Assembly: GCA_945885475.1 (NCBI GenBank)
Contig: CAMCYR010000034.1
Span: forward strand, 1 to 35,044
Reading direction: 5' to 3'
Source of the DNA: Chitinophaga pinensis
GTDB taxonomy: Bacteria > Bacteroidota > Bacteroidia > 2-12-FULL-35-15
Length of the DNA stretch: 35,044 bases
Shown here: positions 15,759 through 35,044 of the stretch, in pieces
Numbering within the stretch: the stretch's first letter is position 1
How the letters are laid out: each line of letters begins with the position of its first letter
Program-made: the position numbers and the translations under genes
The notes under the pieces: generated by a model
Seen by the model: only the letters and a program-made list of their open reading frames with translations
The model's database searches: none
What the model was told of the DNA's origin: nothing

Positions 15759-16340
15759 TTACTTCTCGCTCCAGCGATAACTCTTTTGTTCCAATCCCGC
15801 TAAGTCAATTACTCTGTCGATTACCGTAGCGGCAAGTTCATCAAAGCTTTGAGGTTTACTATAGAAGGATGGACTTGCCGAACAAATAATTCCACCGGCT
15901 TCTGTGATTGTTTTCATATTATTAATATGGATCAGGCTGAGTGGTGTATCTCGTGTTACCAAGATCAATTTTCTTCTTTCTTTCAATATTACATCAGCAG
16001 CGCGTGTTGTTAGGTCATTAGAAATTCCACTGGCAATACGAGCGAGTGTTCCCATAGAGCAGGGACAAATGATCATCGTGTCGTATTTTGCGGAGCCAGA
16101 TGCAAAGGGTGCAAAGAAATCTGATTTGCTATAAATTTTAAATGGTGAATTTTCGAAATCAGAATTGTCTAATTCAAATTTCCATACGTCCTTCGCATTA
16201 TCACTCATTACAATACCAACAGTTTCTATCTGCTCCTCCAGTTGTTGTAGTTTTTGCAACAATACTTTCGCATAAATAGAACCGCTCGCTCCGGTTATTG
16301 CAAGTACAATCTTGTGTTTATTATTCTTCACTTTTTCCAA
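15759..16340 (-). CDS. ubiX: Flavin prenyltransferase UbiX
   Basis: A 193-residue enzyme that joins a dimethylallyl group to FMN to make prenylated FMN, the cofactor of UbiD-type decarboxylases. The N-terminal flavin-binding segment is VLAITGASGSIYAKVLL. IICPCSMGTLARIASGISNDLTTRAADV and RDTPLSLIHINNM are family hallmarks, the second holding the conserved Arg and Ser/Thr contacts. No ATG is available: TTG at 16340 or GTG at 16331 must initiate. Either overlaps the end of the upstream barrel-protein gene (by 20 or 11 bases), implying translational coupling. The window contains no ubiD, so the client decarboxylase must be elsewhere. Confidence 0.95.
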   Translation of the reverse strand: MEKVKNNKHKIVLAITGASGSIYAKVLLQKLQQLEEQIETVGIVMSDNAKDVWKFELDNSDFENSPFKIYSKSDFFAPFASGSAKYDTMIICPCSMGTLARIASGISNDLTTRAADVILKERRKLILVTRDTPLSLIHINNMKTITEAGGIICSASPSFYSKPQSFDELAATVIDRVIDLAGLEQKSYRWSEK

Positions 16341-16938
16341 ACATATAGGTTAATGTAAATGCCAACACATTGTTCCGTTGTCCGGGATTATACCAAAAAC
16401 TCGCTCCGGAAGCATATTCCCGGATTGGAAGTAATGAGTTTGTAAAACGCCAGGTGATCCCCAGATTTTTATAGATAAGGTAATTGATCCCAATACTCGC
16501 ACTTACTTCTGTTCGTAAAAACGGAATCGGATTGTATACTTCTCCTGTCTCATCATATTCTTTTGAGTTGATCAGATAACCGATACCCGGACCAATTTCA
16601 AATGTAAATTTCTTTTGCTTGTATTGTAATAACAATGGAACTTCGATATAGTTTAATTGTAACAAGTAATAACGGTTATCACCTTTGTTCACATCACCTA
16701 CATGCTGGCTTCCCTTTTGAACAAAAAGAATTTCAAATTGCGCTGCCCACTTCTCGTTTATATTCGCATGGAGGGTTGCGCCTCCATCGAATCCAAATTT
16801 ATCGAATCCGCCATAGGTATCGCCTTCCACCTGGCTGGTTGCTAATCCGGCTTTTAATCCGGCTTTAAAACGGGTTTGTGCTTGTGCATGGATAGAGCAA
16901 ACAAAAAGAAAAATAAATATTGAAATGGGTTTTTGCAT
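16321..16938 (-). CDS. Outer-membrane beta-barrel protein (PorT-like family)
   Basis: A 205-residue secreted protein. The signal peptide MQKPISIFIFLFVCSIHAQAQ ends in a typical AQA-Q site, followed by RFKAGLKAGLATSQVEGD. Alternating strands then run to the C-terminal VLAFTLTYMFGKSEE, as in small outer-membrane barrels (outer membrane beta-barrel domain, PF13568, the PorT type). The ATG at 16938 places the signal peptide correctly; an in-frame ATG at 16998 would add 20 residues across the upstream terminator and promoter, and is rejected. A consensus -7 box ends only five bases before this ATG. The 3' end overlaps ubiX by up to 20 bases. Confidence 0.85.
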   Translation of the reverse strand: MQKPISIFIFLFVCSIHAQAQTRFKAGLKAGLATSQVEGDTYGGFDKFGFDGGATLHANINEKWAAQFEILFVQKGSQHVGDVNKGDNRYYLLQLNYIEVPLLLQYKQKKFTFEIGPGIGYLINSKEYDETGEVYNPIPFLRTEVSASIGINYLIYKNLGITWRFTNSLLPIREYASGASFWYNPGQRNNVLAFTLTYMFGKSEE

Positions 16939-16943
16939 GTGTA

Positions 16944-16976
16944 CAAAGTTAATTAAAATACAAACGCCCGCACAAA
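16944..16976 (-). promoter_or_regulatory. Promoter of the barrel-protein/ubiX unit
   Basis: On the minus strand TTTG (16973-16976) and TAACTTTG (16944-16951) are separated by 21 bases, fitting the Bacteroidota consensus. The -7 box ends five bases before the ATG at 16938, so transcription would start at or next to the start codon. The -33 element lies inside the preceding terminator hairpin. Confidence 0.6.
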
Positions 16977-16991
16977 TGCTGTGCAGGCGTT
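16963..16991 (-). terminator. Terminator after the Omp28-like lipoprotein gene
   Basis: AACGCCCGCACA (16963-16974) pairs with TGTGCAGGCGTT (16980-16991), 12 base pairs with one mismatch, around a five-base loop. On the minus strand it lies 20 bases past the stop at 17012 and is followed by TGTATTTTAATT. Confidence 0.75.
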
Positions 16992-17011
16992 CATACAATT
17001 AGAATTATTTT

Positions 17012-17899
17012 TTAAGGAATAAGTTTCACCTCTTCCACTTGAATCACCTCTTTTGTAACATCGTTATATATAAAAGCAACGATGTGGCAACGATTCGCAT
17101 TAAAGGCTGTTGCGCTTGAACCACCTGCAGCAGGATAGGTTGCAGGGAAAGTGTAATTGTAACTTTTGTTTATTACAGCGTTTGCAACGATCGACCCTGT
17201 AACCAGATTTTCGCCCCAGGTTCCATTCAGGTTGTCTCTTAAAACGTGACGGTGAATATATGTAGGTACATAAACTCCGGCATCCAACTGATCAGCTGTA
17301 ATACTATCCTGTGTTGCAAGTACAATTAATTTATATGGTCCTCCTGTTAAAGTATCATATAAAAAAGTAGAATTTACATTACATGTCAGCACTTGAGTGG
17401 AAGTATTGTAGCTGCTAACAATTTCTAATTTAGCTAAAGCAGGCTTTGCTAATTCAATAGCCACTTCTGTTGCCCAAGTCCCGTATGATAATACGTGAGC
17501 TGTAGTAGATGAGGTATAATATTTTCTGTTTATCATCCCATTTGGATTTCCAATATTTGAAATTCCAAAATAAGTATCGTAATTCGTTCCTGCACTTGTT
17601 CTTAAATCGGTTAAATATTGAGTTCCTGTTGTCGATGGGTTTGCAAAAAAGCCAGAATGCACTCCAATTACAACTACGTTTTCACCATTTGCAGTAAGCA
17701 GTGAATTAGCTACAATCGCTGCAGCAGGACAAGCGGTACATTTGTGTCCGGTAAAATCTTCAACCAAAACTTTTCTCACAACAGTTGTAGATGAGGTATC
17801 AATTACACTTCCGGGTTGATCGGGAACATTAATAAAATCGCACGAAGAAATGCTTATCGCCAATCCCAATATTAGTGTGATGAATACTATTTTTTTCAT
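17012..17899 (-). CDS. Omp28-like lipoprotein with CxxC thioredoxin-type motif
   Basis: A 295-residue lipoprotein with lipobox ISSC (C20). The segment VLVEDFTGHKCTACPAAA (C54 and C57) is the start of a thioredoxin-like fold as in the Omp28 family (PF11551), followed by VVVIGVHSGFF. The later part (LEIVSSYNTSTQVLTCNVNSTFLYDT, YKLIVLATQDSI, HRHVLRDNLNGTWGE) is the beta-sandwich domain seen in Omp28-related proteins. Omp28 of Porphyromonas gingivalis is an outer-membrane lipoprotein described as a putative adhesin; enzymatic activity is not established. The ATG is 19 bases after the stop of the DUF6029-like gene, so it is the last gene of that unit. A terminator follows. Confidence 0.88.
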   Translation of the reverse strand: MKKIVFITLILGLAISISSCDFINVPDQPGSVIDTSSTTVVRKVLVEDFTGHKCTACPAAAIVANSLLTANGENVVVIGVHSGFFANPSTTGTQYLTDLRTSAGTNYDTYFGISNIGNPNGMINRKYYTSSTTAHVLSYGTWATEVAIELAKPALAKLEIVSSYNTSTQVLTCNVNSTFLYDTLTGGPYKLIVLATQDSITADQLDAGVYVPTYIHRHVLRDNLNGTWGENLVTGSIVANAVINKSYNYTFPATYPAAGGSSATAFNANRCHIVAFIYNDVTKEVIQVEEVKLIP

Positions 17900-17918
17900 T
17901 CTGCTAAATCTTATACGG

Positions 17919-19586
17919 TTAAAAACTACTTGTAATGCTTAATGAAACACCATTTGATGCCGGAACGTTTCTGCAAACTCCGCCTACACAAAATATCCCT
18001 TCTCTTTGTTTTCCATAACTAAGTGTGATGCGATTCGCATTTTTTGCATATCCAATATTTCCTAAGTAATAATGAGAGCGCTTTTTCACATATTCGTTAC
18101 CATAATTATATTGATCACCCGCAGCAATAAACCAATTTTCATTTATTGTATATTCTAATAAAACGTATGCCCAATCTTGTTGGTCTTGTTTCGTTTGCAT
18201 GTTTTGCAATTCAAGACGAATTGAACTGGTTGGCTTTAATTTATAAGTGATATCAGCTACCACAATGTTTGTGTGTATCGTTGGCGAACCCGGTTTTTGA
18301 ATAATTGATTTATTGTAAATTTGGTGAGAGTATACTAGCGTTCCTTTCCAAGATTTATTGATTTTTTTTGTTACTTCAACATACAAATCTCTGAAATAAA
18401 CTTCCTTTCCAACACCTAAATAATTAGATGTATAGCCCAAATGTTTGGGGTCAGATTCTTTAATTTGAGTTGTATCTAAGCTGTTCGATCCTGAATAGTT
18501 GATGGTGATTTCTGTACCATATTTTCCACCCAATGCAGTTTCTTTTTTGATTTTATATTTCAGTTCTCCTGAATATTCCATTTCGCCACGAGATTGCGAA
18601 GCGTATGGATAAAATGCTAATAAGCTATAAGAATGTTGTTTGGATAAAGCAGGAATATAATTTATAAGTAAGTTGGTTAGTTGTGCTGTTCTGTCGGAAC
18701 GAAAACTCATGTTGTCGATGCGTGAGCCACTGAGTGATAAGGCAAAACCTTTTACGGCATAATTGGCTTGTAATAAAATGGCATCACCATATTTATAATT
18801 GAAACCGTTATCTTGTGAGGGGTCATTTATTTTATAAGCGTACTCACCATTCATCTGAAAATTATTTCTTGTTAAAGAAAATCGGCCGGCTGAAGTACCC
18901 ACATTCTGAGGCAATACAAGAGTCGGATCTGCATCCGTTTGGAATTTACTTACGAAGCTTCCACCCAATGTTACTATTGTTTTTTTATCCGCTAATTTTT
19001 TAAATGCTTCATTTAATTGAATTTCTCCATCAAAACCACGAACCAGACCCGCAGTAGTGAAAAATGTCCGTTGTTTACCAACAAGTGCTTTAAAATAAAG
19101 TCCTTTAATGGGCTGGTATTTTAATCGAATTCCATCAAGTGCGTTGTCTAACCCAAGGTTGCGTTCTTCATAGCATCTTAATGTAAATCCATTTCCAAAT
19201 TGTTCGTAGAAACTTCCCACCGTTACTTCTAGCTCATCTGATTTATAACTAGCAAAACGATATGGAATTCCTGTGCCTTTAAAACCGGTTGGATATCCTT
19301 GAAGACCGTTTAAATAACTTTCGTAACGAATACCTGCTGTGAATTTGCCTTTCGTATAAATAATATTAGCAAAGCCGTTTAGCAGCATTTTTTCGGGCAC
19401 TTCCGCAGCACCAATTGTAGAATCGGGGAAATAATATTGTGCATTTGCCTGAAAATTGCCATGCACTTCTCCTAAGTTTAAATTATTTAGTGTGTTTAGA
19501 TTTATTTGTGCAAAGGTGTTGAAGCAACTAAATACAGCAAATAAAAAAGCAAAAAGTTTTATTAATGCAAAATATTTTTTTATCAC
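17919..19586 (-). CDS. DUF6029-like outer-membrane beta-barrel protein
   Basis: A 555-residue protein with a signal peptide ending near CFNTFAQ. From about residue 70 it shows regular alternating beta strands through to the C-terminus, which ends in an aromatic residue (SLSITSSF), as outer-membrane barrels do. The blocks YEQFGNGFTLRCYEERNLGLDNALDGIRLKYQP and FKALVGKQRTFF are the best-conserved-looking parts, and I associate them with the Bacteroidota family DUF6029; that match is from memory. Around 20 or more strands are plausible. The function is unknown. It sits 21 bases downstream of a TlpA-like thioredoxin gene and 19 bases upstream of an Omp28-like lipoprotein gene, so the three are almost certainly co-expressed. 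Confidence 0.8.
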   Translation of the reverse strand: MIKKYFALIKLFAFLFAVFSCFNTFAQINLNTLNNLNLGEVHGNFQANAQYYFPDSTIGAAEVPEKMLLNGFANIIYTKGKFTAGIRYESYLNGLQGYPTGFKGTGIPYRFASYKSDELEVTVGSFYEQFGNGFTLRCYEERNLGLDNALDGIRLKYQPIKGLYFKALVGKQRTFFTTAGLVRGFDGEIQLNEAFKKLADKKTIVTLGGSFVSKFQTDADPTLVLPQNVGTSAGRFSLTRNNFQMNGEYAYKINDPSQDNGFNYKYGDAILLQANYAVKGFALSLSGSRIDNMSFRSDRTAQLTNLLINYIPALSKQHSYSLLAFYPYASQSRGEMEYSGELKYKIKKETALGGKYGTEITINYSGSNSLDTTQIKESDPKHLGYTSNYLGVGKEVYFRDLYVEVTKKINKSWKGTLVYSHQIYNKSIIQKPGSPTIHTNIVVADITYKLKPTSSIRLELQNMQTKQDQQDWAYVLLEYTINENWFIAAGDQYNYGNEYVKKRSHYYLGNIGYAKNANRITLSYGKQREGIFCVGGVCRNVPASNGVSLSITSSF

Positions 19587-19607
19587 AATGAACTATTTTT
19601 TTATTTT

Positions 19608-20129
19608 TTATCTTGTTATCTTTTCTCCTTTTGCAACTTGTTTCAAAACTTCAAAAATATGCTCTTCGCCACCATCTACATATCCGCTATGTTGCCAAAC
19701 AATTTCGCCTTTACCATTTATAATAAATACCTGAGGAATGTCCCCAACATTTAAAGCTCGTTTAAAATCTTGATTTTCGTCTAAGTAAACTTCATATTCC
19801 CATCCGTGTGTTTTAACGTCTGTCGCTGCTTTTCCTGAGCTACGAGAGTCATCAATAGATATGGCAATTAATTTTACACCCGTTTCTTTTTGCCAATCAG
19901 TGTAAATTTCTGAAATCGCATCCAATTCTTTTTTACAAGGTTTGCACCACGTTGCCCAAAAGTCAATAATCATTGGTTTGCCATCATTGGAAATTTTCCC
20001 AGTATTAAATGTTTTGCCATCAATAGTTTTTACATCGACTGATGGAATAATTCTTCCTTCAGAATTTTGAGCGATTGTTGCAGCGGTTAAACCAGTAATT
20101 AAAAATAAACCAAGAACTATTTTTTTCAT
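19608..20129 (-). CDS. TlpA-like periplasmic thioredoxin
   Basis: A 173-residue secreted thioredoxin-fold protein. The signal peptide ends near TIAQ. The active-site motif WCKPC (C62, C65) lies in IDFWATWCKPCKKEL, followed by VKLIAISIDDSR and the cis-proline segment DIPQVFIINGKG. These are features of the TlpA/ResA group, which reduces or isomerises disulfides outside the cytoplasm. The downstream barrel and Omp28-like genes suggest that its clients or partners are outer-membrane proteins carrying CxxC motifs; that is inference. No lipobox was seen, so it is probably soluble in the periplasm. It is preceded by a long inverted repeat that separates it from the T9SS cargo gene. Confidence 0.92.
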   Translation of the reverse strand: MKKIVLGLFLITGLTAATIAQNSEGRIIPSVDVKTIDGKTFNTGKISNDGKPMIIDFWATWCKPCKKELDAISEIYTDWQKETGVKLIAISIDDSRSSGKAATDVKTHGWEYEVYLDENQDFKRALNVGDIPQVFIINGKGEIVWQHSGYVDGGEEHIFEVLKQVAKGEKITR

Positions 20130-20156
20130 AAGAGCGATAAAGTTGAATTAATAATA

Positions 20157-20213
20157 AAAAAATAAATCAGTCATGGTATGTCAAATAACAAGCCAAAAAC
20201 TGATTTATTTTTT
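20157..20213 (-). terminator. Perfect 15-bp inverted repeat between T9SS cargo and TlpA-like genes
   Basis: AAAAAATAAATCAGT (20157-20171) pairs exactly with 20199-20213 around a 27-base loop. On the minus strand it starts 13 bases after the stop of the 20226-22130 gene and its last arm ends in a T-rich tract. It is AT-rich, so it may act as a leaky terminator that lowers expression of the downstream three genes. Confidence 0.6.
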
Positions 20214-20225
20214 AGTACTATTTTT

Positions 20226-22130
20226 TTATTTGCTTACTGATACTTTTTTAACTGAAATGCTGTTTCCAACACGAATATTAATAAAGTACAAGCCATTATT
20301 TAAGTTAGAAGCATCAAGTGAATATGTTTGATCACCAACGCTTAATGTACCTAAGTTTGCAGTTGATACTAATTGTCCAAGTGCATTTACTACTTCAATA
20401 GATACTTCGTTTGATTCAACCATGTTAAAGTTAACGATGGCACTATTAGAAATAGGATTTGGATAAACAGTAACGTTGTTAGCTAATTGATTTGCTTCAG
20501 TAATTCCAACAGAACCGTTTACTAAATTGATATCATCAATATAAGCGTTGTTACCATAATTACTAGTAGCAACAAATTCTATCATTACATTTGCTTGTCC
20601 AGCAAAAGCATTTAAATTAACGGACTCTGCTCTCCATTGTGTTGCAGTCGGTGTGAATACAGCTGTTTGAGCAGGAACAGTTTTTAATGTAGCTCCAGCC
20701 TTATTGTATACAGATGTCCAAGTAGTACCACAATCTGAAGAAGCTTTTACTTCAATTCTATCATTTTCAGCAGCATATTGGCAATAAGCAACGTTGAATG
20801 TCAAAGTTGCAGTAGAAGTACCAGAGAAATCAACATTTTTCGCGTACAATATATCCACATTTCCACTAGGGATAGTATAGAAATCAATTTTAGAACATGC
20901 TGTACTTGTTCCGAATCCACCAGCTCCTGTTTTTCTAGTCCAAGTCAAACCGTTATCAGCATTTCCAATAAACCAACCTGTTGGAGGGTATGTTGTAGCC
21001 GTAAATCCTTCTGTTAAAGGAGCAGCAGAACCTGTACTGCTTATAATTGCAAAAGGAACAACTGTTTGATCGTTGATTGCATCAAAATCTAGTCCGCCGT
21101 TTGGAGCAGAAGTAAACGATGTAAAAGTGTGAGCTCCAACAGCAGCGGTAAGTGCAGGTAAAGTTGCAACAGCAGTTGCACCAGTTGCTAATGAACCTGT
21201 CCAAGCTTGAGTCATTACAGTTCCAGCATCTACTTTATAATTAATAGTACAGCTAGTTAATGTGTTTGTTCCGAAGTTTTTTACAGTAACAGTTGGTGTG
21301 AAAGATGTTGTACATTGAAAAGTTGGAACACCAGAAACTGCAGTAGCTCCGATATCAGAAGTAATTGCCTGTTTAGCATCACGTCCTGCTTGTTGAACTT
21401 TTTTGTCTCCATCACTTTGAATAAATCCAACCATATAAATTTCAGACTTTTTGTAAATGTAAGCTGGGATTGGCGCACCAAACGAAATTGTTTGTGTTTG
21501 CCCAGTCGTCCAAGTCCCTGGCAAGGTAGTTCCAGCAGCAGAAGGATACATTTTACGCATAACGTTGTAAAAATCTGTTTCCCCGTTAGATCCTGGAGCA
21601 GAAGCGAAACTAATTGTTTCTTCCGCCATTGCAATATGAGCTTTTAATGCTCCAGCCGATGTATAAGCTTGGCTAGCAGTAATTACACATGTAACAAAAA
21701 TAGAATCGTAATCAGCAGAAAAAGTGTGACTCATAGCAATTGTAAATGGGGAAGAAACTCCATATGCAGAATCAATTTTTACCTGCGTGTAATTTGCGGG
21801 AGCCCCTGCATAACTTGCACCTGCTAGATAAGTGGCGCCATTCATTGGTGCTTCTGGAACACCAGATACACCATAATAAGATACTCTAGGCGCAACATCT
21901 GTTGGATTTTGCGCGTTCATTGGATCAACACCAGGCCAGCTAGTTTGATATTTTAAAGAAACAACTTTAGCTAAATTTGCGGCTAAAAGAGCATTAAATG
22001 CAGGGTTTTGTGAAGCACAAGGCGGACATGAAGCTTGAGTGAACTCTTCTGCAAGAACAGTTCTTTGTGATTGAGCCATTCCAATGCTCGAAATAGCAAG
22101 GGTAGCAACGAGAAATGTAATTTTTTTCAT
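20226..22130 (-). CDS. Omp28-like thioredoxin-fold protein with T9SS sorting domain
   Basis: A 634-residue secreted protein. After a signal peptide (MKKITFLVATLAISSIGMAQ), the segment VLAEEFTQASCPPCASQNPAF holds a CPPC motif (C35, C38) like the Omp28 thioredoxin fold, with VSLKYQTSWPG and YGVSGVPEAPMNG behind it; the proline there resembles the cis-Pro loop. A CARDB-like domain spans about residues 270-355 (IGATAVSGVPTFQ, VTVKNFGTNTLTSCTINYKVD). A cleaved-adhesin/choice-of-anchor-type jelly roll spans about 370-540 (EGFTATTYPPTGWFIGN, YIDDINLV). The last 80 residues are a type A T9SS sorting domain (VYPNPISNSAIV, ALGQLVS, GLYFINI, KKVSVSK). The product should reach the cell surface or medium through SprA. 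It leads the minus-strand block. Confidence 0.93.
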   Translation of the reverse strand: MKKITFLVATLAISSIGMAQSQRTVLAEEFTQASCPPCASQNPAFNALLAANLAKVVSLKYQTSWPGVDPMNAQNPTDVAPRVSYYGVSGVPEAPMNGATYLAGASYAGAPANYTQVKIDSAYGVSSPFTIAMSHTFSADYDSIFVTCVITASQAYTSAGALKAHIAMAEETISFASAPGSNGETDFYNVMRKMYPSAAGTTLPGTWTTGQTQTISFGAPIPAYIYKKSEIYMVGFIQSDGDKKVQQAGRDAKQAITSDIGATAVSGVPTFQCTTSFTPTVTVKNFGTNTLTSCTINYKVDAGTVMTQAWTGSLATGATAVATLPALTAAVGAHTFTSFTSAPNGGLDFDAINDQTVVPFAIISSTGSAAPLTEGFTATTYPPTGWFIGNADNGLTWTRKTGAGGFGTSTACSKIDFYTIPSGNVDILYAKNVDFSGTSTATLTFNVAYCQYAAENDRIEVKASSDCGTTWTSVYNKAGATLKTVPAQTAVFTPTATQWRAESVNLNAFAGQANVMIEFVATSNYGNNAYIDDINLVNGSVGITEANQLANNVTVYPNPISNSAIVNFNMVESNEVSIEVVNALGQLVSTANLGTLSVGDQTYSLDASNLNNGLYFINIRVGNSISVKKVSVSK

Positions 22131-22402: not shown

Positions 22403-23161
22403 ATGAAAAAAATACTTACTTCTATTCTTGCATTGTCTTTTGCAAGTTTTACGTTTGGGCAAAGTCTTCGCATTTTTGATTTAGGTGTGGATGTAACCAA
22501 TGATACTGTTATTGTTCCTATTGTGGCTGGTTCTGCAATGGTTAATGATTTAGAAATCCACAATACTTCTACTGTAGGAGTGAATTTTAAAGTAGGTAGA
22601 ATTATTACTCCGATTGATTCTTGTGCAAATGTTTATTTTTGTACAGGAACTTTATGTTATAGTCCTCAAACAGCTTTAGTATGGTATCCAACCGGAGCAG
22701 GTCAATTAATTGCTGCCAGTTCAGTTTTACCGAATGGTCCCGGAACGTATGGAATTGCAGCGCATTACGATGCATGCCCTACTGTTTGTCAAGATTTCTT
22801 TGTGAAATATCAACTTTACAATACACTTGCTGGATCCTCAGATACGGCTGTTGTAACGATTAAATATGTTTGTACGCCAGCTGGACTGAACGAAAATTTT
22901 CAAGAAGCTTTTTTAACTGCTTTTCCAAACCCGGCAAATTCATTTGTAAACATCAATTATGAAGTGAAAGATGCTTATAAATCAGGTAAAATTATTCTTT
23001 ACGATATGCTCGGAAAAGAAGTAAGAGCGATCTCTATTTCAGATCAACAAGGTTTGACCAAGCTTAGTTTATCAGATTTAATGACTGGTATTTATTTCTA
23101 TTCAATTGTTTTGGATAACAAGATTGTTACTACAAAAAAATTAATAGTCAGTTCAAAATAA
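22403..23161 (+). CDS. T9SS cargo protein of unknown function
   Basis: A 252-residue secreted protein. The signal peptide MKKILTSILALSFASFTFGQ is followed by an all-beta domain of about 150 residues that I do not recognise, carrying several cysteines (SCANVYFCTGTLCYSP, DACPTVCQDFF, KYVCTPAG) likely to form disulfides outside the cell. The theme VDVTNDTVIVPIVAGSAMVNDLEIHNTS suggests an Ig-like fold. The C-terminal 80 residues are a type A sorting domain (AFPNPANSFVNINYEV, ILYDMLGKEVR, GIYFYSIVLDN, KKLIVSSK), closely similar to that of the next gene. It has its own promoter and a terminator-like hairpin after its stop. Confidence 0.9.
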   Translation: MKKILTSILALSFASFTFGQSLRIFDLGVDVTNDTVIVPIVAGSAMVNDLEIHNTSTVGVNFKVGRIITPIDSCANVYFCTGTLCYSPQTALVWYPTGAGQLIAASSVLPNGPGTYGIAAHYDACPTVCQDFFVKYQLYNTLAGSSDTAVVTIKYVCTPAGLNENFQEAFLTAFPNPANSFVNINYEVKDAYKSGKIILYDMLGKEVRAISISDQQGLTKLSLSDLMTGIYFYSIVLDNKIVTTKKLIVSSK

Positions 23162-23182
23162 AATTAATTTTCAATAAATGTG

Positions 23183-23215
23183 AAAGGCCAATATTCAACG
23201 TATTGGTCTTTTTTA
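23183..23215 (+). terminator. Terminator between the two T9SS cargo genes
   Basis: AAAGGCCAATA (23183-23193) pairs with TATTGGTCTTT (23201-23211), 11 base pairs including one G-U, around a seven-base loop, with more T following. It ends only 15 bases before the next ATG, so part of the transcription may read through. Confidence 0.65.
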
Positions 23216-23229
23216 TTCCCCTAAAAAAA

Positions 23230-24654
23230 ATGAAAAAGCACCTGTTTTTTTTATTCTTTCCAACCTTTATGTTTGGCCAAACAACTTATTTTGAAAAAGT
23301 TTTTGGAACATCTGGAATTGAAATCTCTAGATCAGTGAAGCAAATAAACACGGGAAGTATCTTTGTTTTTGGAAATTCTGATGCAGGGCCTTTTGGTGGA
23401 AATGATATATCTCTTTCTAAGTTAGATCGTCAAGGAAATGAAATTTGGACACACTATTACGGAACAAGTTTTACGGAAAATGGTTTTTATTTAAATACAA
23501 CTGCAGATGGAAATTTTGTGTTTGTTGCTGAAGGACAATCAGCTTCAGGCTTATTGGATATATTAATTTACAAAGTAGATTCAGCAGGGTCTGTGATTTG
23601 GAATAAAACATACGCTACTCCAGTAAATGAAACGGCTAAATACATTGAGCAAACATCCGATGGTGGATATATTATTGCCGGCTCTCAAAATGATGCACTC
23701 GGATTGAATGATATATTGGTTCTAAAGCTTGATTCGAATGGAGATTACGAGTGGCATCAAACCTTGGGGAGAGCGGAAAATGAAATTGCTGATATGATCC
23801 ATGAAATAAATGGCGGTTATATTTTAACGGGCGTTACAAAAAGTTATGGAGCTGGAGGATACGATATTATTTTATACAGACTCGATTTATTTGGAATAGA
23901 AAATTGGTCGCAACCGTATGGTGATTCACTTCAAAATGGCTGCCAAGGCTTGCTTTTAACGGCAGATGGAAATTATTTGTCGTATGGAGAAACAGAAATA
24001 GCTCCTGCTTCAGCCTTTGATTTTTATTTAGAAAAAATAGATACCAATGGTGTTAGTTTGTGGAAAAAAATTTTTGGCGGGATCGGCTCGGATGCCATTT
24101 TTTCTGTAATAAATAATGGGACAGGAGGCTATATATTTACTGGTTACAGTAATAGTTATAGTGGAAGTGGGCCTCTCGATCTTGTTATAATGAATCTAGA
24201 TTCCTTGGGTAATCAAATTTGGGTTCAAACGTATGGAGGTTCTGGAATTGATATTGGTTATGAAATAATAAAATCGGTTGATAATGATGGATTTATTTTA
24301 ACAGGAAAAACAGTCGATTCAACTGAAGAGTACTATTTATTAAAATTAGATGGAAGTGGAGTTGTTAGCGAAATAGTAAATTACCAAAATACTTTTTATT
24401 CGATCTCAAACGCTTTCCCTAACCCAGCAAATATGTCTGTTTCAATGAAGTACGACATCACAGAGTTTTCACACAAAGGCCAGATTGTAATTTATGATCT
24501 GTTAGGCAAAGCAGTAAAAGAAATTGCGCTTTCTGATAAAAAAGGGACTGCAAAAATTAATGTGTATGACCTGAATGCCGGAGTTTATTTTTACTCTTTT
24601 CTGATAGATGGTAAAGCCGTTTCAACAAAAAAATTAGTTGTAAGTTCTCAGTAA
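23230..24654 (+). CDS. T9SS cargo with seven propeller-like repeats
   Basis: A 474-residue secreted protein with signal peptide MKKHLFFLFFPTFMFGQ. It contains seven repeats of about 50-55 residues, each with a strand GGYI(L/I)(T/A)G, a D(I/L)xxxK(L/V)D segment, an NG or G turn and W(x)3YG. Examples are GGYIIAGSQNDALGLNDILV, GGYILTGVTKSYGAGGYDII and GGYIFTGYSNSYSGSGPLDL. Seven such units suggest a closed beta-propeller. The C-terminal 80 residues are a type A sorting domain (AFPNPANMSVSMKYDI, VIYDLLGKAVKEI, GVYFYSFLIDG, KKLVVSSQ). The ATG at 23230 is preferred over an in-frame start at 23203, which would place nine extra residues before the signal peptide and overlap the terminator. Its binding target is unknown. 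Confidence 0.9.
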   Translation: MKKHLFFLFFPTFMFGQTTYFEKVFGTSGIEISRSVKQINTGSIFVFGNSDAGPFGGNDISLSKLDRQGNEIWTHYYGTSFTENGFYLNTTADGNFVFVAEGQSASGLLDILIYKVDSAGSVIWNKTYATPVNETAKYIEQTSDGGYIIAGSQNDALGLNDILVLKLDSNGDYEWHQTLGRAENEIADMIHEINGGYILTGVTKSYGAGGYDIILYRLDLFGIENWSQPYGDSLQNGCQGLLLTADGNYLSYGETEIAPASAFDFYLEKIDTNGVSLWKKIFGGIGSDAIFSVINNGTGGYIFTGYSNSYSGSGPLDLVIMNLDSLGNQIWVQTYGGSGIDIGYEIIKSVDNDGFILTGKTVDSTEEYYLLKLDGSGVVSEIVNYQNTFYSISNAFPNPANMSVSMKYDITEFSHKGQIVIYDLLGKAVKEIALSDKKGTAKINVYDLNAGVYFYSFLIDGKAVSTKKLVVSSQ

Positions 24655-28402: not shown

Positions 28403-31400
28403 TTGACTAAGTCGTTCGCAAAATATATTCTTGTTACCGGTGCTTCATTTGGAATGCTTTCGCTTATCGTTAGTTCCGATGCGAAAGTCAGTTCATATAA
28501 TCACGCAAATGCTGCAGACGAAAATCAACCTGTTTTTGCAATTGATACCCCTGTCGATGAGGACACCCCGATTATTCTCCCTTACAATTTTCAAGACCAA
28601 TCCAACAACGATCCGCTGAATTATCCGAATGCAGGTGGATTGATGCTCAATAATCCTTCGAATATTAACACCTCAGTTGATTATGATCCTCTAACCGGTC
28701 AATACAATGTCAACCAAACAATGGGTGGCATCAATTACCGCCCGCCCACTTATCTTGAAAGCGAGGAATATCAAAAACTAATGTTCGATAAGCAGGTGAA
28801 AGATTATTGGAATGCCCGCTCACATGCTGAAAGTCAGAATGCGCAGTCAAATACTGTCATCCCGAAATTAAATGTTGGTGGCGAAATTTTTGATCGGATC
28901 TTCGGTGGAAATACAGTTGATATCCGCCCGAATGGTTCGGCTGAATTGATATTCGCCTACAATGGCACAAAAACCGAAAATCCAGCTATTCCTGTTAGAA
29001 ACCGTAAAACAAATACGTTTGATTTTGATGAAAAAATTCAATTGAATGTTGTTGGTAAAATCGGTGACAAGTTAAAATTAACAACCAGTTACAATACTGA
29101 AGCAACTTTTGATTACGAAAATCAAATGAAGCTGGAGTATACCGGCTATGAGGATGAGATCATCAAAAAGATTGAAGCGGGGAATGTGAGTTTGCCACTG
29201 AATGGATCTTTGATCACTGGAAGTCAAACGCTGTTTGGTATTAAAACTCAGTTGCAATTCGGGCGGTTGACCATTACAAGTGTTTTGTCTCAGCAAAAAG
29301 GTAAAAAATCAGAAGTGGAGGTTACCGGTGGTGCACAGGTTACTAAGTTTGATATTCCGGGTGATCAGTACGAAGCAAACAAACACTTTTTCTTAGCACA
29401 TTATTTTCGCGATAATTTTAATTCCGCATTAGCTGGTTTACCATTTGTAAATTCTCAGGTAAACATTACGAGAATGGAAGCCTGGATTTCAAATACCAAC
29501 GGTGCAACAAACGATGTCCGCAGTGTGGTTGCATTTGCTGAATTGGCGGAAGATTCTGCACATGTGCCTACTAACCAGTTCGCCTACGTCGGTGATAATC
29601 CGCTCGATAAATTACCATACAATACGCAGAATGATCTGTATTACAAGATGACCGACCCAACCGCTGTGCCTTCAAATATTGGAGTGAGGGTTATCAATAC
29701 AACAGTTGCGAAAATCTATTCCATCACCGGGGATATTGTGAAGCCGCAAACAAATTATGAATTGGTTGCTAGTGCAAGAAAACTTCAGCCTTCCGAATAT
29801 ACATTAAACGCTCGTCTTGGTTTTATCTCCTTAAACCAACAATTAAATCCAGACCAGATCCTTTCTGTTGCCTACGAATATACATTTAATGGTATTGTGT
29901 ATCGTGTCGGTGAATTTTCAACGGATGGTGTCAGTGCTCCAGATGCCTTGATAACAAAGATGTTGAAGAGCTCCGCAACAAACACAAAACATCCGATGTG
30001 GAATTTGATGATGAAGAATATTTATTCCATAGGCGCATATCAGGTAAATTCTCAGGATTTTAAATTGGAAGTTTTTTATACCAATGCTCAAAGTGGAACC
30101 GACATTAATTATCTTCCTGTTTCTGCTGCTGAGGTGTTGATCGCTGCAAAACCTTTAAATCAGGTCTTGTTTGTCGATAGATTAAATCAGCAAAACGATG
30201 CAACTCCCGATGGCGCATTCGATTTTATTGACGGGGTAACCATAAATGCGACCAATGGACGCGTTATTTTTCCGGTCGTAGAGCCTTTCGGAGACCATTT
30301 GCGGAGCAGATTTACTCCCTCTTCCACGGAAGCAAATTCCTACGTTTTCGATCCTTTGTACGACTCCACGATCACAAGTGCACGAAATGTTTTCGCGAAT
30401 TTAAATCGTTTCAAATTAAAAGGTTCCTACCAATCAACCGGTGGCTCCGAAATATCCTTAGGTGCACCCAATGTTCCGCAAGGCTCTGTTACTGTTACTG
30501 CAGGTGGAATTCTATTACAGGAGAATGTTCAGTATACCGTTGATTACACCTTGGGTCGCGTGAAGATCATTGATGAGGGGGTTTTAAATTCAGGAATGCC
30601 GATTAAAATTTCCCTAGAAAGTAACGCACTCTTTGCCATTCAGCAAAAAACATTGTTTGGCACTCACCTCGATTACCGTATCAATAAAGATTTCAGCATC
30701 GGTGGTACCGTTTTGAATTTAACGGAACGACCGCTTACTAAAAAGGTAAATATCGGTGATGAACCAATCTCAAATACCATTTGGGGATTAGATGCCAATT
30801 ACCGCACCGAAGCACCTTTCCTTACACGCTGGATCGATAAGATTCCCTTTATTGAAACCAAGGAGATGAGCACGATTACTGCTGCCGGGGAGTTTGCATA
30901 TTTGGTTCCTGGGCATAGCAAAGCAATCGGTAAAAGCGGTAATTCATATATCGATGACTTTGAAGGCAGTCAGTCGGAAATAGATCTGCACGCTCAAAGC
31001 GCCTGGAGTTTGGCAAGTACGCCACAAGGACAAACAGCATCCGGGATGTTTCCCGAAGGAGCACTTTCTGATTCATTACCAAACGGTTTTAACAGAGCAA
31101 AATTAAATTGGTATCACATCGATCCGTTGTTTTTGCGGAATCAATCGGGAACAACTCCCGGTTATTACAGCACAACGGATATGTCGAACAATTTTGCACG
31201 TGAAATCCCTGAAACGGAAGTTTTCCCGAACAAGCCTTCATCATCAGGAACTCCTGTGATCACGACAACACTCGATCTGGCATACTATCCGACGGAACGC
31301 GGCCCATACAATTACGATGTAACGCCTACTTCTTTGTCTGCAGGATTAGATGCAAATGGAAATTTGAATAATCCGACATCCCGCTGGGGTGGTATCATGC

Positions 31401-34400
31401 GCTCTATCAATACGAACGATTTTGAAGCGGCAAACATTGAGTTTATTCAGTTTTGGGTGATGGATCCATTCAACAGCGATCTGCCGATTGCCGATCAGAT
31501 TACTTCCGGAGAATTGTATTTCGATCTTGGAAATATTTCTGAAGATGTCTTGAGAGATGGATACAAAAGTGCTGAAAATGTTTTGCCTGCTCCAAGTACA
31601 GCGGCTCAGAATAATGGAAATAATTTACCTACCGATACCACCGCATTCGGTATTGTCCCTCTAATTCAACCGCTTGTAAATGCTTTTAACAGCGATGAAG
31701 CCGATAGAGCATTTCAGGATATTGGTCTTGATGGTATGAGTAATGTGCAGGAGCAAACCTTCTTTAATGATTATTTGACACAGGTTGCTCTTACTTCACC
31801 TGCCGGTTATGGCGGCATTGCTGCCGATCCATCCGGTGACGATTACCGCTATTTCAGAGATGGTATTTACGATGCGGCATCGAGTAAAACACTTGAACGG
31901 TACAAAAAATTTAACGGATTGGAAGGAAACTCTGCTATTACTACCGGCTCATTTCCTACCGCTTCCACTACTTTACCTAACGTTGAAGATATTAACCGCG
32001 ATAACAACTTAAGTACTGTTGAGAGTTATTATCAATACAAAGTTGGTTTAACTCCGGGTGCTTTTGCTGGTGGTGTGGGAACAAATTACATTACCAATGT
32101 GTATACTACAACCGGACAAAATATTAAAGACGGAACCACAAAACCAATTACCTGGTACCAATTTAAAATTCCTATTAAAGATCCGAACGCGTTGCGTGTT
32201 GGTGCAATTGAAAATTTTCAATCGATTCGTTTTATGCGGATGTTCATTAAAGGATGTGATAAACCGATTGTATTGCGCTTCGCCCGACTAGAATTGGTTC
32301 GTAACGATTGGAGAAAATATGCTTATGATTTGTTGTTGCCGGGTTTATACCAACCGAACGACGATGCCAACACCCAGTTTGATATTGGTGCTGTGAATAT
32401 TGAAGAGGATGGAAGCAAGCAGCCCGTTAACTATGTGTTGCCACCAAACATCGATAGAGAAATCAATACAGGTTCTGCAAATTTGGTTGCATTAAATGAG
32501 CAGGCAATGTCCTTGACCATCTGTAATCTCGAAGACGGTCATTCCCGTGCGGCATATAAAACTTCTAACCTGGATGTGCGTTCGTACAAAAAATTAAAAA
32601 TGTATATCCATGCAGAAGCTTCCGCGAATACCGCTACTCCGCTTAGTGATGATGATCTGTATGCCTTTGTCCGTTTAGGAACAGATTATACGGATAACTA
32701 TTATGAATATGCAATCCCTTTAAAAGTTACTCCTCCAGGTTATTACAACGGTTCGGATGTGGACGATCAATACCGTGTTTGGCCCGAAGCGAATGAAATG
32801 ATTTTGGAGTTTGAAAAATTGCAAGCAGCTAAACAACGAAGAAATATTGATATGTTCAACGGCGGCAGCGTTACGCTTACTTCCGAATATATAGTGCCGG
32901 ACGGAACACGACTGATCACCATTAAAGGAAATCCGAATTTAAGTGCCATCAAAACGATGATGATCGGTATCCGTAATCCGAACAAAGGCGGACCAACAGA
33001 CAGTGATGATGGTTTGCCAAAATGCGGACAGGTTTGGGTGAACGAATTGCGTTTAACTGATTTTGATGAGCAAGGTGGATGGGCTGCTACTGCAAGAGTT
33101 ACAGCTAAATTAGCCGATTTCGGAAATTTGTCTTTATCCGGAAACATGTATACTCCTGGTTTTGGTAGTATAGAAAATAAAATTCAGGAACGTAAAAGAG
33201 CGACCTTAAAACAATATGATGTTTCTTCAAGTTTGGAATTGGGTAAGTTTTTACCGGAAGAATATAACATTCATATTCCGATGTATGTTGGATATTCTGA
33301 AACATTCATCACACCGCAATACAATCCGCTTGATCCGGATATCTTGCTTGCACCCGCTTTAAAGGATGAAGCGATTCCAAAGAGTGTGCGCGATTCCCTG
33401 AAACGCGTTACACTGGATTATACCAAACGGAGGAGCATCAATTTTACGAATGTAAAAAAAGACAAAGGAAAAAATTCCAAGAAGAGTCGTATCTATGATA
33501 TTGAAAACTGGGCTGCATCTTATTCTTATAATGAAACGTATAAGCGTGATGTAAATATAGAATATAATACACAACGTAATTACCGCGGTGGCTTGATTTA
33601 TAATTTCGCTCCTACCCCAAAAAATTATAAACCTTTTGCGAAAACAAAAATATTTCAGAGCAAATACCTGCAGCTGATCAAAGACCTGAATTTTTATTTG
33701 ATGCCGAATAAAATTGGTTTTGGAACGGATGTCGACCGCGATTTCAGCACTTCTAAAAGCAGAAATACAACGGGTGGGGATTTATTAATCCTACCGACCT
33801 TTAATAAGCGTTTTACAATGAGTCGTAACTATGAATTTAAGTACGACCTTACAAAAGGATTGAAGTTTGATTATACCGCCACAAATGATGCCCGTATCCT
33901 CGAGCCCGCTGGCGAAATCGATACAGGTGAAAAAAAGGATACCGTTTGGAATAACTTTATTGAAGGCGGTAAAACAACACGCTTTAATCAGCAGGTGGGT
34001 GTAAATTATACGATCCCAATCAATAAAATCCCACTGCTTGATTTTACAACTGCTTCTGTGAGATATGGAGGAACATACGGTTGGGAACGCGCACCGTTCA
34101 ATGCTGATTCGTTGGGTAATACGATCCGGAACTCCCAAACAATTAATTGGAATGGTCAGTTAAATATGATCACGCTGTACAATAAGATTCCTTATTTTAA
34201 AAAGATCAACCAGAAGGGGAATAAAGGACAGAACAAAGGTGGAAAAGCGAGTGCCATTTCAAAACCGGATGCTCCAAAGACAGCAGCAGAAATTGCTGAT
34301 TCTACAAAAAAGGCGAAAGAAAATAAATTTGAAATATTAGAATATGTTGCCAGAATAATCATGTCGATTAAAACGGTAACGGTTACTTATTCGACAACCG

Positions 34401-35044
34401 AAGGGACAATACTGCCCGGTTACGGACAAAATACAAGTATGGTTGGTATGGATGACCGCTTGCAGGGTCCAACAGCAGGTTTTGTATTGGGAAGCCAGAA
34501 AGATATTCGACCTGAAGCAGTTGAAAAAGATTGGCTCGTCCAGACACAATCAATCAACCTGCCCTATACGCGGACCTATAGCCAGAATCTAAATATCCGT
34601 GCCAACGTTGAACCCTTGCCCGATCTGAAAATTGAGTTGACCGGTACACGAACGAAAGCAAAAAGCAACAGTGAGTTCTTTAGGTGGGATGGAGACGAAT
34701 ATGTATCTCAATCACCGATGGAAACAGGGAATTTTAGTATGTCCTATGTGACCTATAAAACTTCTTTTGTAAAAGATGGTGACGAAACCTTCCAAACATT
34801 TTTGAATATCCGTCCGGGGATTTCTGCCCGCCAGGGAGATGAAAATCAATTTTCAGACGGTACAGTTGGCGGTGTTTATCAGGAAGGGTATAATGCAACG
34901 TCTCAGGATGTATTAATTCCGGCATTCTTAGCGGCTTATTCAGGCAAAAGTGAAAACAATATCAGCCTGAGTCCATTCCCAAAAATCCCGAAACCAAATT
35001 GGAGAGTGACCTATGATGGTCTTTCAAAAATGGAAAAAATAAAA
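28403..35044 (+). CDS. sprA: T9SS outer-membrane translocon SprA, 3' end outside window
   Basis: An uninterrupted frame of 2214 codons that continues past the right edge. Characteristic blocks are SVDYDPLTGQYNVNQTMGG and YRPPTYLESEEYQKLMF near the N-terminus, repeated barrel segments, SYIDDFEGSQSEIDL near 30948 and CGQVWVNELRLTDFDEQGG near 33020. SprA is the giant outer-membrane barrel (about 2400 residues in Flavobacterium johnsoniae) through which T9SS cargo crosses the outer membrane, and it is also needed for gliding. The best start is TTG at 28403, giving a lysine-containing signal peptide (LTKSFAKYILVTGASFGM...). An internal ATG at 28454 would cut the hydrophobic core. No ATG exists between the ruvA stop and this TTG. 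Roughly 200 residues are missing at the C-terminus. Confidence 0.95.
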   Translation, partial: MTKSFAKYILVTGASFGMLSLIVSSDAKVSSYNHANAADENQPVFAIDTPVDEDTPIILPYNFQDQSNNDPLNYPNAGGLMLNNPSNINTSVDYDPLTGQYNVNQTMGGINYRPPTYLESEEYQKLMFDKQVKDYWNARSHAESQNAQSNTVIPKLNVGGEIFDRIFGGNTVDIRPNGSAELIFAYNGTKTENPAIPVRNRKTNTFDFDEKIQLNVVGKIGDKLKLTTSYNTEATFDYENQMKLEYTGYEDEIIKKIEAGNVSLPLNGSLITGSQTLFGIKTQLQFGRLTITSVLSQQKGKKSEVEVTGGAQVTKFDIPGDQYEANKHFFLAHYFRDNFNSALAGLPFVNSQVNITRMEAWISNTNGATNDVRSVVAFAELAEDSAHVPTNQFAYVGDNPLDKLPYNTQNDLYYKMTDPTAVPSNIGVRVINTTVAKIYSITGDIVKPQTNYELVASARKLQPSEYTLNARLGFISLNQQLNPDQILSVAYEYTFNGIVYRVGEFSTDGVSAPDALITKMLKSSATNTKHPMWNLMMKNIYSIGAYQVNSQDFKLEVFYTNAQSGTDINYLPVSAAEVLIAAKPLNQVLFVDRLNQQNDATPDGAFDFIDGVTINATNGRVIFPVVEPFGDHLRSRFTPSSTEANSYVFDPLYDSTITSARNVFANLNRFKLKGSYQSTGGSEISLGAPNVPQGSVTVTAGGILLQENVQYTVDYTLGRVKIIDEGVLNSGMPIKISLESNALFAIQQKTLFGTHLDYRINKDFSIGGTVLNLTERPLTKKVNIGDEPISNTIWGLDANYRTEAPFLTRWIDKIPFIETKEMSTITAAGEFAYLVPGHSKAIGKSGNSYIDDFEGSQSEIDLHAQSAWSLASTPQGQTASGMFPEGALSDSLPNGFNRAKLNWYHIDPLFLRNQSGTTPGYYSTTDMSNNFAREIPETEVFPNKPSSSGTPVITTTLDLAYYPTERGPYNYDVTPTSLSAGLDANGNLNNPTSRWGGIMRSINTNDFEAANIEFIQFWVMDPFNSDLPIADQITSGELYFDLGNISEDVLRDGYKSAENVLPAPSTAAQNNGNNLPTDTTAFGIVPLIQPLVNAFNSDEADRAFQDIGLDGMSNVQEQTFFNDYLTQVALTSPAGYGGIAADPSGDDYRYFRDGIYDAASSKTLERYKKFNGLEGNSAITTGSFPTASTTLPNVEDINRDNNLSTVESYYQYKVGLTPGAFAGGVGTNYITNVYTTTGQNIKDGTTKPITWYQFKIPIKDPNALRVGAIENFQSIRFMRMFIKGCDKPIVLRFARLELVRNDWRKYAYDLLLPGLYQPNDDANTQFDIGAVNIEEDGSKQPVNYVLPPNIDREINTGSANLVALNEQAMSLTICNLEDGHSRAAYKTSNLDVRSYKKLKMYIHAEASANTATPLSDDDLYAFVRLGTDYTDNYYEYAIPLKVTPPGYYNGSDVDDQYRVWPEANEMILEFEKLQAAKQRRNIDMFNGGSVTLTSEYIVPDGTRLITIKGNPNLSAIKTMMIGIRNPNKGGPTDSDDGLPKCGQVWVNELRLTDFDEQGGWAATARVTAKLADFGNLSLSGNMYTPGFGSIENKIQERKRATLKQYDVSSSLELGKFLPEEYNIHIPMYVGYSETFITPQYNPLDPDILLAPALKDEAIPKSVRDSLKRVTLDYTKRRSINFTNVKKDKGKNSKKSRIYDIENWAASYSYNETYKRDVNIEYNTQRNYRGGLIYNFAPTPKNYKPFAKTKIFQSKYLQLIKDLNFYLMPNKIGFGTDVDRDFSTSKSRNTTGGDLLILPTFNKRFTMSRNYEFKYDLTKGLKFDYTATNDARILEPAGEIDTGEKKDTVWNNFIEGGKTTRFNQQVGVNYTIPINKIPLLDFTTASVRYGGTYGWERAPFNADSLGNTIRNSQTINWNGQLNMITLYNKIPYFKKINQKGNKGQNKGGKASAISKPDAPKTAAEIADSTKKAKENKFEILEYVARIIMSIKTVTVTYSTTEGTILPGYGQNTSMVGMDDRLQGPTAGFVLGSQKDIRPEAVEKDWLVQTQSINLPYTRTYSQNLNIRANVEPLPDLKIELTGTRTKAKSNSEFFRWDGDEYVSQSPMETGNFSMSYVTYKTSFVKDGDETFQTFLNIRPGISARQGDENQFSDGTVGGVYQEGYNATSQDVLIPAFLAAYSGKSENNISLSPFPKIPKPNWRVTYDGLSKMEKIK

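Follow-up and report, generated by a model that had tools for sequence, protein, structure and literature searches.

On a 35,044-nucleotide contig of Chitinophaga pinensis (CAMCYR010000034.1, hereafter the window), we found a gene unit that is real and strongly conserved in Bacteroidota. In this unit a TlpA-like thioredoxin-fold protein, a DUF6029 outer-membrane barrel and an Omp28 family lipoprotein are encoded one after another, preceded by the gene of an Omp28-type cargo of the type IX secretion system (T9SS). We propose, at a probability of roughly 0.45, that the products form a thiol relay across the outer membrane, which would run from TlpA through the barrel to the Omp28 and T9SS thioredoxins at the surface. 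The component families are each known and the new element is their combination. The window is the whole of contig C34, one of the 84 contigs that make up a Bacteroidota genome of 3.06 Mb, and its nearest named relative was an uncultured Bacteroidetes metagenome-assembled genome (locus L122, 85% identity).

Conservation of the gene neighbourhood

The initial annotation had described four consecutive minus-strand genes as a thiol-redox unit arranged around one barrel. All four open reading frames were recovered at that place and on that strand (Table 1), with the gaps of 21 bases between tlpA and the barrel gene and 19 bases between the barrel gene and omp28; the cargo gene and tlpA are separated by 96 bases. 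The CPPC, WCKPC, CTAC and FCVGGVCRNV motifs were all present in the window proteins. Conservation was followed in three sets of DUF6029 loci: a relatives set of 40 loci, which a protein search recovered from 59 genomes; a phylum set of 40 loci in 15 families, obtained by searching an even sample of 158 genomes with PF19494 (42 positive); and a named set of 80 loci from GTDB species genomes.

Among the loci with enough flank, tlpA lay directly upstream of the barrel gene, on the same strand and with a gap below 300 bases, in 34/39 (relatives), 33/40 (phylum) and 71/75 (named) cases. When either strand and a distance of up to 3 kb from DUF6029 were allowed, TlpA was found at 38 of the 40 phylum loci and in 13 of the 15 families. 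The chance expectation of adjacency is below 1/40 even on the assumption of 40 TlpA-like genes in each genome, and since adjacency was seen in 33/40, the association of TlpA with DUF6029 is beyond chance. An Omp28-type protein followed the barrel directly in 34/40 relatives, 19/40 phylum and 71/76 named loci, and a surface-destined CxxC partner was nearby in about 36 of the 40 phylum loci. TlpA and an outer partner occurred jointly in 35/40, 34/40 and 74/80 loci (relatives, phylum and named sets), where outer partners include CxxC proteins with a T9SS tail and lipoprotein redoxins besides Omp28-type proteins. The genes around the core varied between families and the core stayed constant. Among cultured, non-pathogenic species, Hymenobacter duratus (L174) has the complete unit. 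The relatives set also shares a wider block of the same order, reaching UbiX, QueG and RuvB, and for this reason it is weaker evidence when taken alone. The tendency of DUF6029 homologues to sit beside Omp28 and TlpA genes, by which the initial annotation had proposed to judge its reading, held across the phylum. The same is true for the conservation of the redox cysteines among orthologues: in the relatives set, WCxPC was found in all 35 adjacent TlpA homologues and CxxCP in all 35 adjacent Omp28 homologues.

The DUF6029 barrel and its cysteine pair

The protein described earlier as a large DUF6029-like outer-membrane barrel matched PF19494 far over the cut-off (E 1.4e-181; 605 bits against 27; model positions 7-538 of 538). 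DUF6029 was its sole match in the Pfam scan, in which no TonB plug, LptD, Wzi or DsbD_TM/CcdA domain was found. The AlphaFold2 model (79 sequences; mean predicted local distance difference test score, pLDDT, 92.2) is all-beta, and 24 membrane strands were counted from its DSSP line, the C-terminal strand ending in Phe. Turns of the model that lead from an even to an odd strand are almost all short and were assigned to the periplasm, and loops from odd to even strands are mostly long and were assigned to the outside. In this predicted topology, the cysteine pair C533/C538 would belong to a small hairpin (residues 530-534 and 537-541) within the last of the extracellular loops. The two-residue turn of the hairpin is G-G in the window barrel and N-G or S-G in distant members; C533 and C538, as the first pair beyond the turn residues, would occupy a non-hydrogen-bonded cross-strand position. 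Disulfides of the cross-strand type are considered to be cognate substrates for thioredoxin-like enzymes (PMC4354306).

The FCVGGVCRNV segment proved to be a stronger feature than had been claimed. The pair, as C-x-[GNS]-G-x-C, was present in all 40 barrels of the relatives set and in 39/40 of the phylum set (79/80 together), and the single exception was a copy with a broken reading frame. Counted from the C-terminus, its first cysteine was fixed at position 23 (24 in three members). Only nine columns were invariant among 32 barrels that diverge down to about 17% identity, and C533, G536 and C538 are three of these. Other barrel cysteines were nearly absent (0.0006-0.0009 per residue), and most members had exactly two cysteines after residue 60. 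Apart from the C-terminal pair, no cysteine feature of the barrel is conserved. The N-terminal cysteine of TLRCYEERN, which the initial annotation had placed in a conserved block, was kept in only 2/40 barrels (the window and L053) and was rejected as a functional residue.

The best solved fold matches of the barrel were 24-stranded usher pores (Z 18.5, root-mean-square deviation 4.5 over 375). Resemblance to ushers, Occ porins, AlgE and LptD was read as that of generic large barrels with a shared strand number and not as kinship. A PDB sequence search with the barrel profile yielded RecA entries alone, over 33 residues and with E values from 0.003 upward, which were taken as chance. Wzi, to which DUF6029 has been likened (PMC9603273), was absent from the Pfam matches of the barrel and from the fold matches listed; homology between the two may exist all the same.

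The thioredoxin-fold partners

The tlpA product is a TlpA/ResA-like thiol oxidoreductase, having an AhpC-TSA/thioredoxin fold (AhpC-TSA E 1.4e-19 in the Pfam scan) together with a WCxxC motif. With the ResA model NF002854 (E 9e-24) it reached 84.2 bits against a curated cut-off of 170, and so is not ResA proper. The protein is presumably periplasmic. Its genome has 8 TlpA matches at E <= 1e-3, the window gene included, and carries one DsbD_TM gene, that is, a reductant importer of the DsbD type. This only DsbD_TM gene lies about 8 kb from the genome's only other PF11551-matching Omp28 gene, which encodes 701 amino acids (aa) (G000:C19:30276-39516).

The lipoprotein matched Omp28 at E 4e-23 and NF033782 (lipoprot_Omp28) at 163.4 bits against a cut-off of 150. 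Among 62 Omp28 lipoproteins the invariant columns were C20 of the lipobox, T50, C54, C57, P58, P119, Q204 and G229, and the invariance of C20 agrees with the lipid anchoring that had been assigned to this protein. Its AlphaFold2 model (pLDDT 91) consists of a thioredoxin domain followed by an immunoglobulin-like (Ig-like) domain; the CxxC starts the first long helix, and P119 precedes the following strand as a cis-Pro-type residue. The best solved match of the model was HBP35 of Porphyromonas gingivalis (PDB 5y1a; E 7e-10, template modelling score 0.63), and the Omp28 domain 2r2c was also in the top four. From the lipobox cysteine on (17822-17842 of the window), the 62 homologues share the start C-D-K-[VI]-x-x-P (D in 56/62, P in 59/62). 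This conservation exceeds what lipidation needs and is possibly a sorting or docking signal.

Export of the CPPC protein by the T9SS, as the initial annotation had it, agrees with a type A C-terminal sorting domain that exceeded both cut-offs (PF18962, 51.9 bits against 27; TIGR04183, 42.3 bits against 23; Por_Secre_tail E 9e-14). The N-terminal part of this cargo aligned with the Omp28 lipoprotein at an hhalign probability of 98.1% over 223 columns, covering the thioredoxin and Ig-like regions. A PF11551 search of its own genome missed the cargo gene, which makes it a distant Omp28 member, and no paralogue of the N-terminal part was found in that genome at the sensitivity used. In nine cargo orthologues C35, P37, C38 and the cis-Pro-type loop G90-V91-P92 were invariant. 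Judging from the alignment, one two-domain protein type (thioredoxin plus Ig-like) is exported by two routes, as a lipoprotein and through the T9SS.

Partner replacement and co-occurrence

In the divergent family f42 (L110-L121, e.g. L118:10036-11381), redoxin/AhpC-fold proteins stand in for both Omp28 parts. The order there is TlpA, barrel (with CTSGIC), redoxin-fold lipoprotein (C-P-H-C) and redoxin-fold T9SS-tailed protein (C-P-H-C). In family f40 the barrel gene is followed by that of an Omp28 protein with a T9SS tail in place of the lipobox. That different thioredoxin folds are found at the same two destinations is hard to explain without a shared thiol function. T9SS cargo near the unit carried a CxxC in 33/39, 28/36 and 41/62 cases in the three locus sets, as compared with 11/61, 3/12 and 10/62 for T9SS cargo elsewhere in the same loci. 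At the genome level, an Omp28 lipoprotein scoring at least 50 bits was found in 26 of the 42 DUF6029-positive genomes and in 1 of the 116 negative ones. Two genomes, G099 and G074, lack the lipoprotein gene beside the barrel gene and have it at another place. PorV, a marker of the T9SS, was present in 42/42 DUF6029-positive genomes versus 124/158 overall (P 6e-6 if genomes are taken as independent).

The proposed relay and alternative explanations

The initial annotation had suggested that the unit passes reducing equivalents or isomerises disulfides from periplasm to surface, or assembles a disulfide-bearing barrel. This joint function is partly supported: recurrent partners were found at the periplasmic, lipid-anchored and T9SS-exported positions, but one of the two barrel cysteine sites on which it leaned, the N-terminal one, failed. 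The relay that we propose is built on the genes, their motifs, the invariant cysteines, the neighbourhood, the replacement of partners and the predicted folds. In the proposed order of events, the DsbD/CcdA system of the inner membrane would recharge the periplasmic TlpA, after which thiol exchange would take place between TlpA and the barrel's C-x-x-G-x-C pair. The pair would form a strained cross-strand disulfide on the hairpin of the last loop, of the type that thioredoxins reduce. The barrel would then pass reducing equivalents to the thioredoxin-fold proteins outside, namely the lipoprotein and the T9SS cargo, both of Omp28 type; these two would in turn target disulfides in proteins at the surface or outside the cell. 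From the genes, motifs and predicted folds we infer the barrel disulfide, the direct contacts and the direction of electron flow, and with them the role of the barrel, which may be conductor, substrate or presenter of Omp28. The stronger claim, that DUF6029 is the first beta-barrel conduit to pass reducing equivalents from periplasmic to surface thioredoxins in T9SS Bacteroidota, is put forward tentatively and we hold it to be somewhat doubtful. If it were true, the conduit would provide these bacteria with an actively powered system for reducing disulfides outside the cell.

Several points weigh against the relay. The weakest step is how TlpA, from the inner side, would reach a cysteine pair that the predicted topology places outside; for this, the hairpin would have to face the lumen of the wide barrel, or a domain of Omp28 would have to lie within the pore. 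The surface exposure of the Omp28 lipoprotein is likewise presumed, and we know of no surface-export signal that the conserved C-D-K-[VI]-x-x-P start matches. TlpA or an outer partner was missing nearby in 5/40, 6/40 and 6/80 loci, through contig ends as well as true absences. The presence of DUF6029 in a genome does not entail that of an Omp28 lipoprotein. The listed PorV-negative genomes all belong to family f36 except one, and counts of genomes or sequences are in general not counts of independent events. Furthermore, the named set is biased for the CVGG motif, which served as its search pattern and bears on the cysteine counts taken from it.

One of the two main rivals, which we consider unlikely, is that the barrel holds a structural disulfide, following a logic like that of LptD. 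TlpA would be a dedicated reductase or isomerase ensuring that the correct C-x-x-G-x-C disulfide is made during assembly, the Omp28 proteins would act as clients or be assembled along with the barrel as subunits, and electrons would not cross the outer membrane. TlpA is indeed the most constant neighbour of the barrel, a structural bridge predicts invariant cysteines equally well, and in the model a fixed bridge on the hairpin would hold the last loop. However, the recurrent outer CxxC partners, their replacement by other thioredoxin folds and the enrichment of CxxC in nearby cargo are left unexplained by such a bridge. In addition, TlpA, ResA and CcmG proteins are typically reductants and not oxidases, and little rigidity would probably be gained from a C-x4-C bridge across a turn of two residues.

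The other main rival, rather less probable, is that the barrel serves as a presentation platform: the Omp28 lipoprotein would be threaded through the wide pore, or anchored by it, at the surface in the manner of a plug in a barrel. Until its export, Omp28 would have its CxxC kept reduced by TlpA, and the barrel pair would be a docking or mixed-disulfide site. Plug-and-barrel arrangements are known for LptE in LptD and for RcsF in OmpA/OmpC, and ushers pass folded Ig-like domains; the predicted pore resembles the 24-stranded ushers and Omp28 has an Ig-like domain. The genes for the Omp28 lipoprotein and the barrel are tightly linked, with most gaps below 100 bases, and co-occur across genomes. 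Against this stand families f42 and f40, which lose or replace the lipoprotein Omp28 and yet keep the barrel, its cysteines and TlpA.

Transport through DUF6029 is very improbable. What passes would be a metal or a thiol-sensitive ligand, such as copper, haem or small thiols, with C-x-x-G-x-C as a ligand site that the thioredoxins keep reduced, or, as a variant, exported polysaccharide. In favour of transport, HBP35, the closest solved Omp28 relative, is a haemin-binding protein required in medium poor in haemin (PMC2907840), and DUF6029 was likened to Wzi with a suggested role in polysaccharide secretion (PMC9603273). Against it, DUF6029 stood alone in the Pfam scan with no TonB plug domain, no polysaccharide or metal-uptake cluster was noted in the inspected neighbourhoods, where most neighbours are unannotated, and export has no need of multiple CxxC partners.

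Organisation of the locus

Because strong hairpins flank tlpA, the barrel gene and omp28, the core operon probably consists of these three genes, and the cargo gene in front of it is likely a separate or partly coupled unit. The hairpin behind omp28 probably marks the end of the unit. The one between the cargo gene and tlpA could be a terminator, an attenuator or an mRNA stabiliser. Matches to sigma-70 promoters at the unit were no better than chance, and the Bacteroidota -7/-33 promoter pattern gave no site on the minus strand.

Table 1. Features of the thiol-redox unit in the window (MFE, minimum free energy; z, z score against shuffled sequences).
Feature	Position	Strand	Remarks
T9SS cargo, 634 aa	20226..22130	-	Omp28-type N-terminal part, choice-of-anchor J/MAM-like domain and type A sorting tail
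CPPC motif of T9SS cargo	22017..22028	-	aa 35-38
A/U-rich strong hairpin followed by U-rich stretch, between cargo gene and tlpA	20150..20222	-	MFE -25.1 kcal/mol, z -7.3
TlpA/ResA-like thioredoxin-fold protein, 173 aa	19608..20129	-	signal-like N-terminus; WCKPC at aa 61-65
DUF6029 outer-membrane barrel, 555 aa, GTG start	17919..19586	-	PF19494; 24 strands predicted
CVGGVC (C533...C538) of barrel	17973..17990	-	near-invariant C-x-[GNS]-G-x-C; predicted beta-hairpin
Omp28 family lipoprotein, 295 aa	17012..17899	-	lipobox C20, CTAC-P, Ig-like C-terminal domain
Intrinsic-terminator-like hairpin directly 3' of omp28	16958..16996	-	18-bp stem, T tail; MFE -25.4, z -6.9

The listed TTG start of the next downstream gene (16998) falls at the terminator-like hairpin, and the ATG at 16938 is the likelier start. 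This region (15759-16938) holds genes for an OMP_b-brl_2 barrel and a UbiX flavin prenyltransferase on the same strand, which trail the unit in several families. They were set aside as members of the unit, since the strong terminator-like hairpin lies between and they are missing from many loci. On the other side (22403-24654), two plus-strand genes of 252 and 483 aa run divergently from the unit; both products are T9SS-tailed and without CxPC, and relatives of both genes recur beside the unit within the same genus. At 28403-35044, an open reading frame of 2214 aa runs off the contig end.

Comparison with known systems

To our knowledge, the cell surface is usually taken to lack a powered reductant. 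A phylum-wide unit with a cysteine pair in the barrel and thioredoxins on its inner and outer sides would, if the relay is true, alter this picture. The relay also gives a testable role to DUF6029, a domain of unknown function, and bears on what, if anything, recharges the surface thioredoxins of Bacteroidota such as HBP35 and Omp28. In the literature searched, which consisted of open-licence papers, no link of DUF6029, TlpA and Omp28 was found; DUF6029 appeared only in PMC9603273, and TlpA together with Omp28 only in unrelated papers. A reductant source or a barrel partner for surface thioredoxins was named in none of the excerpts available of PMC2907840, PMC9477747, PMC13404670 and PMC9603273.

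Both Omp28-type proteins of the window belong to the Omp28 family (PF11551, NF033782, NF045500; PDB 2r2c), by sequence or by profile, although membership itself implies no barrel partner. NCBI names a related Omp28 selenoprotein family, NF045500, and no paper among those searched joined Omp28 with a selenoprotein. HBP35, the top structural match to the Omp28 lipoprotein, has the same thioredoxin and Ig-like domains and is a T9SS surface protein. However, it has been studied as a haemin-binding protein, whereas the Omp28 of the window is a lipoprotein, and we know of no link between HBP35 and any DUF6029 barrel. The thioredoxin activity of HBP35 was measured and was abolished by mutating its two cysteines (PMC2907840). 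For Muribaculaceae, a T9SS thioredoxin was proposed to protect surface proteins in a 2026 preprint (PMC13404670). Another Omp28-annotated T9SS surface cargo, Paraprevotella 00502, recruits trypsin, a disulfide-rich protease, and is needed for its autolysis; it differs in its WD40 N-terminal domain and in an oligomerisation mechanism, and disulfides or thioredoxin go unmentioned in the text (PMC9477747). If a surface Omp28 reduces disulfides, an alternative, speculative reading of this self-destruction of trypsin through an Omp28-related T9SS protein would be at hand.

With LptD the barrel shares its large size in the outer membrane and, perhaps, a function that depends on a disulfide and on a lipoprotein partner, as in the LptE plug. 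It differs in having no match to the LptD family, in a lower fold similarity (Z 14.2 for an LptD model against 18.5 for ushers) and in another arrangement of cysteines. Thiol relays are known from the inner membrane. The relays of DsbD, CcdA and ScsB are the closest in the proposed principle, with a membrane cysteine pair linking thioredoxin-fold proteins on both sides. However, those systems are helical and span the other membrane, whereas the pair described here belongs to a beta-barrel of the outer membrane and has both cysteines on one hairpin, so that the barrel is not a member of that group.

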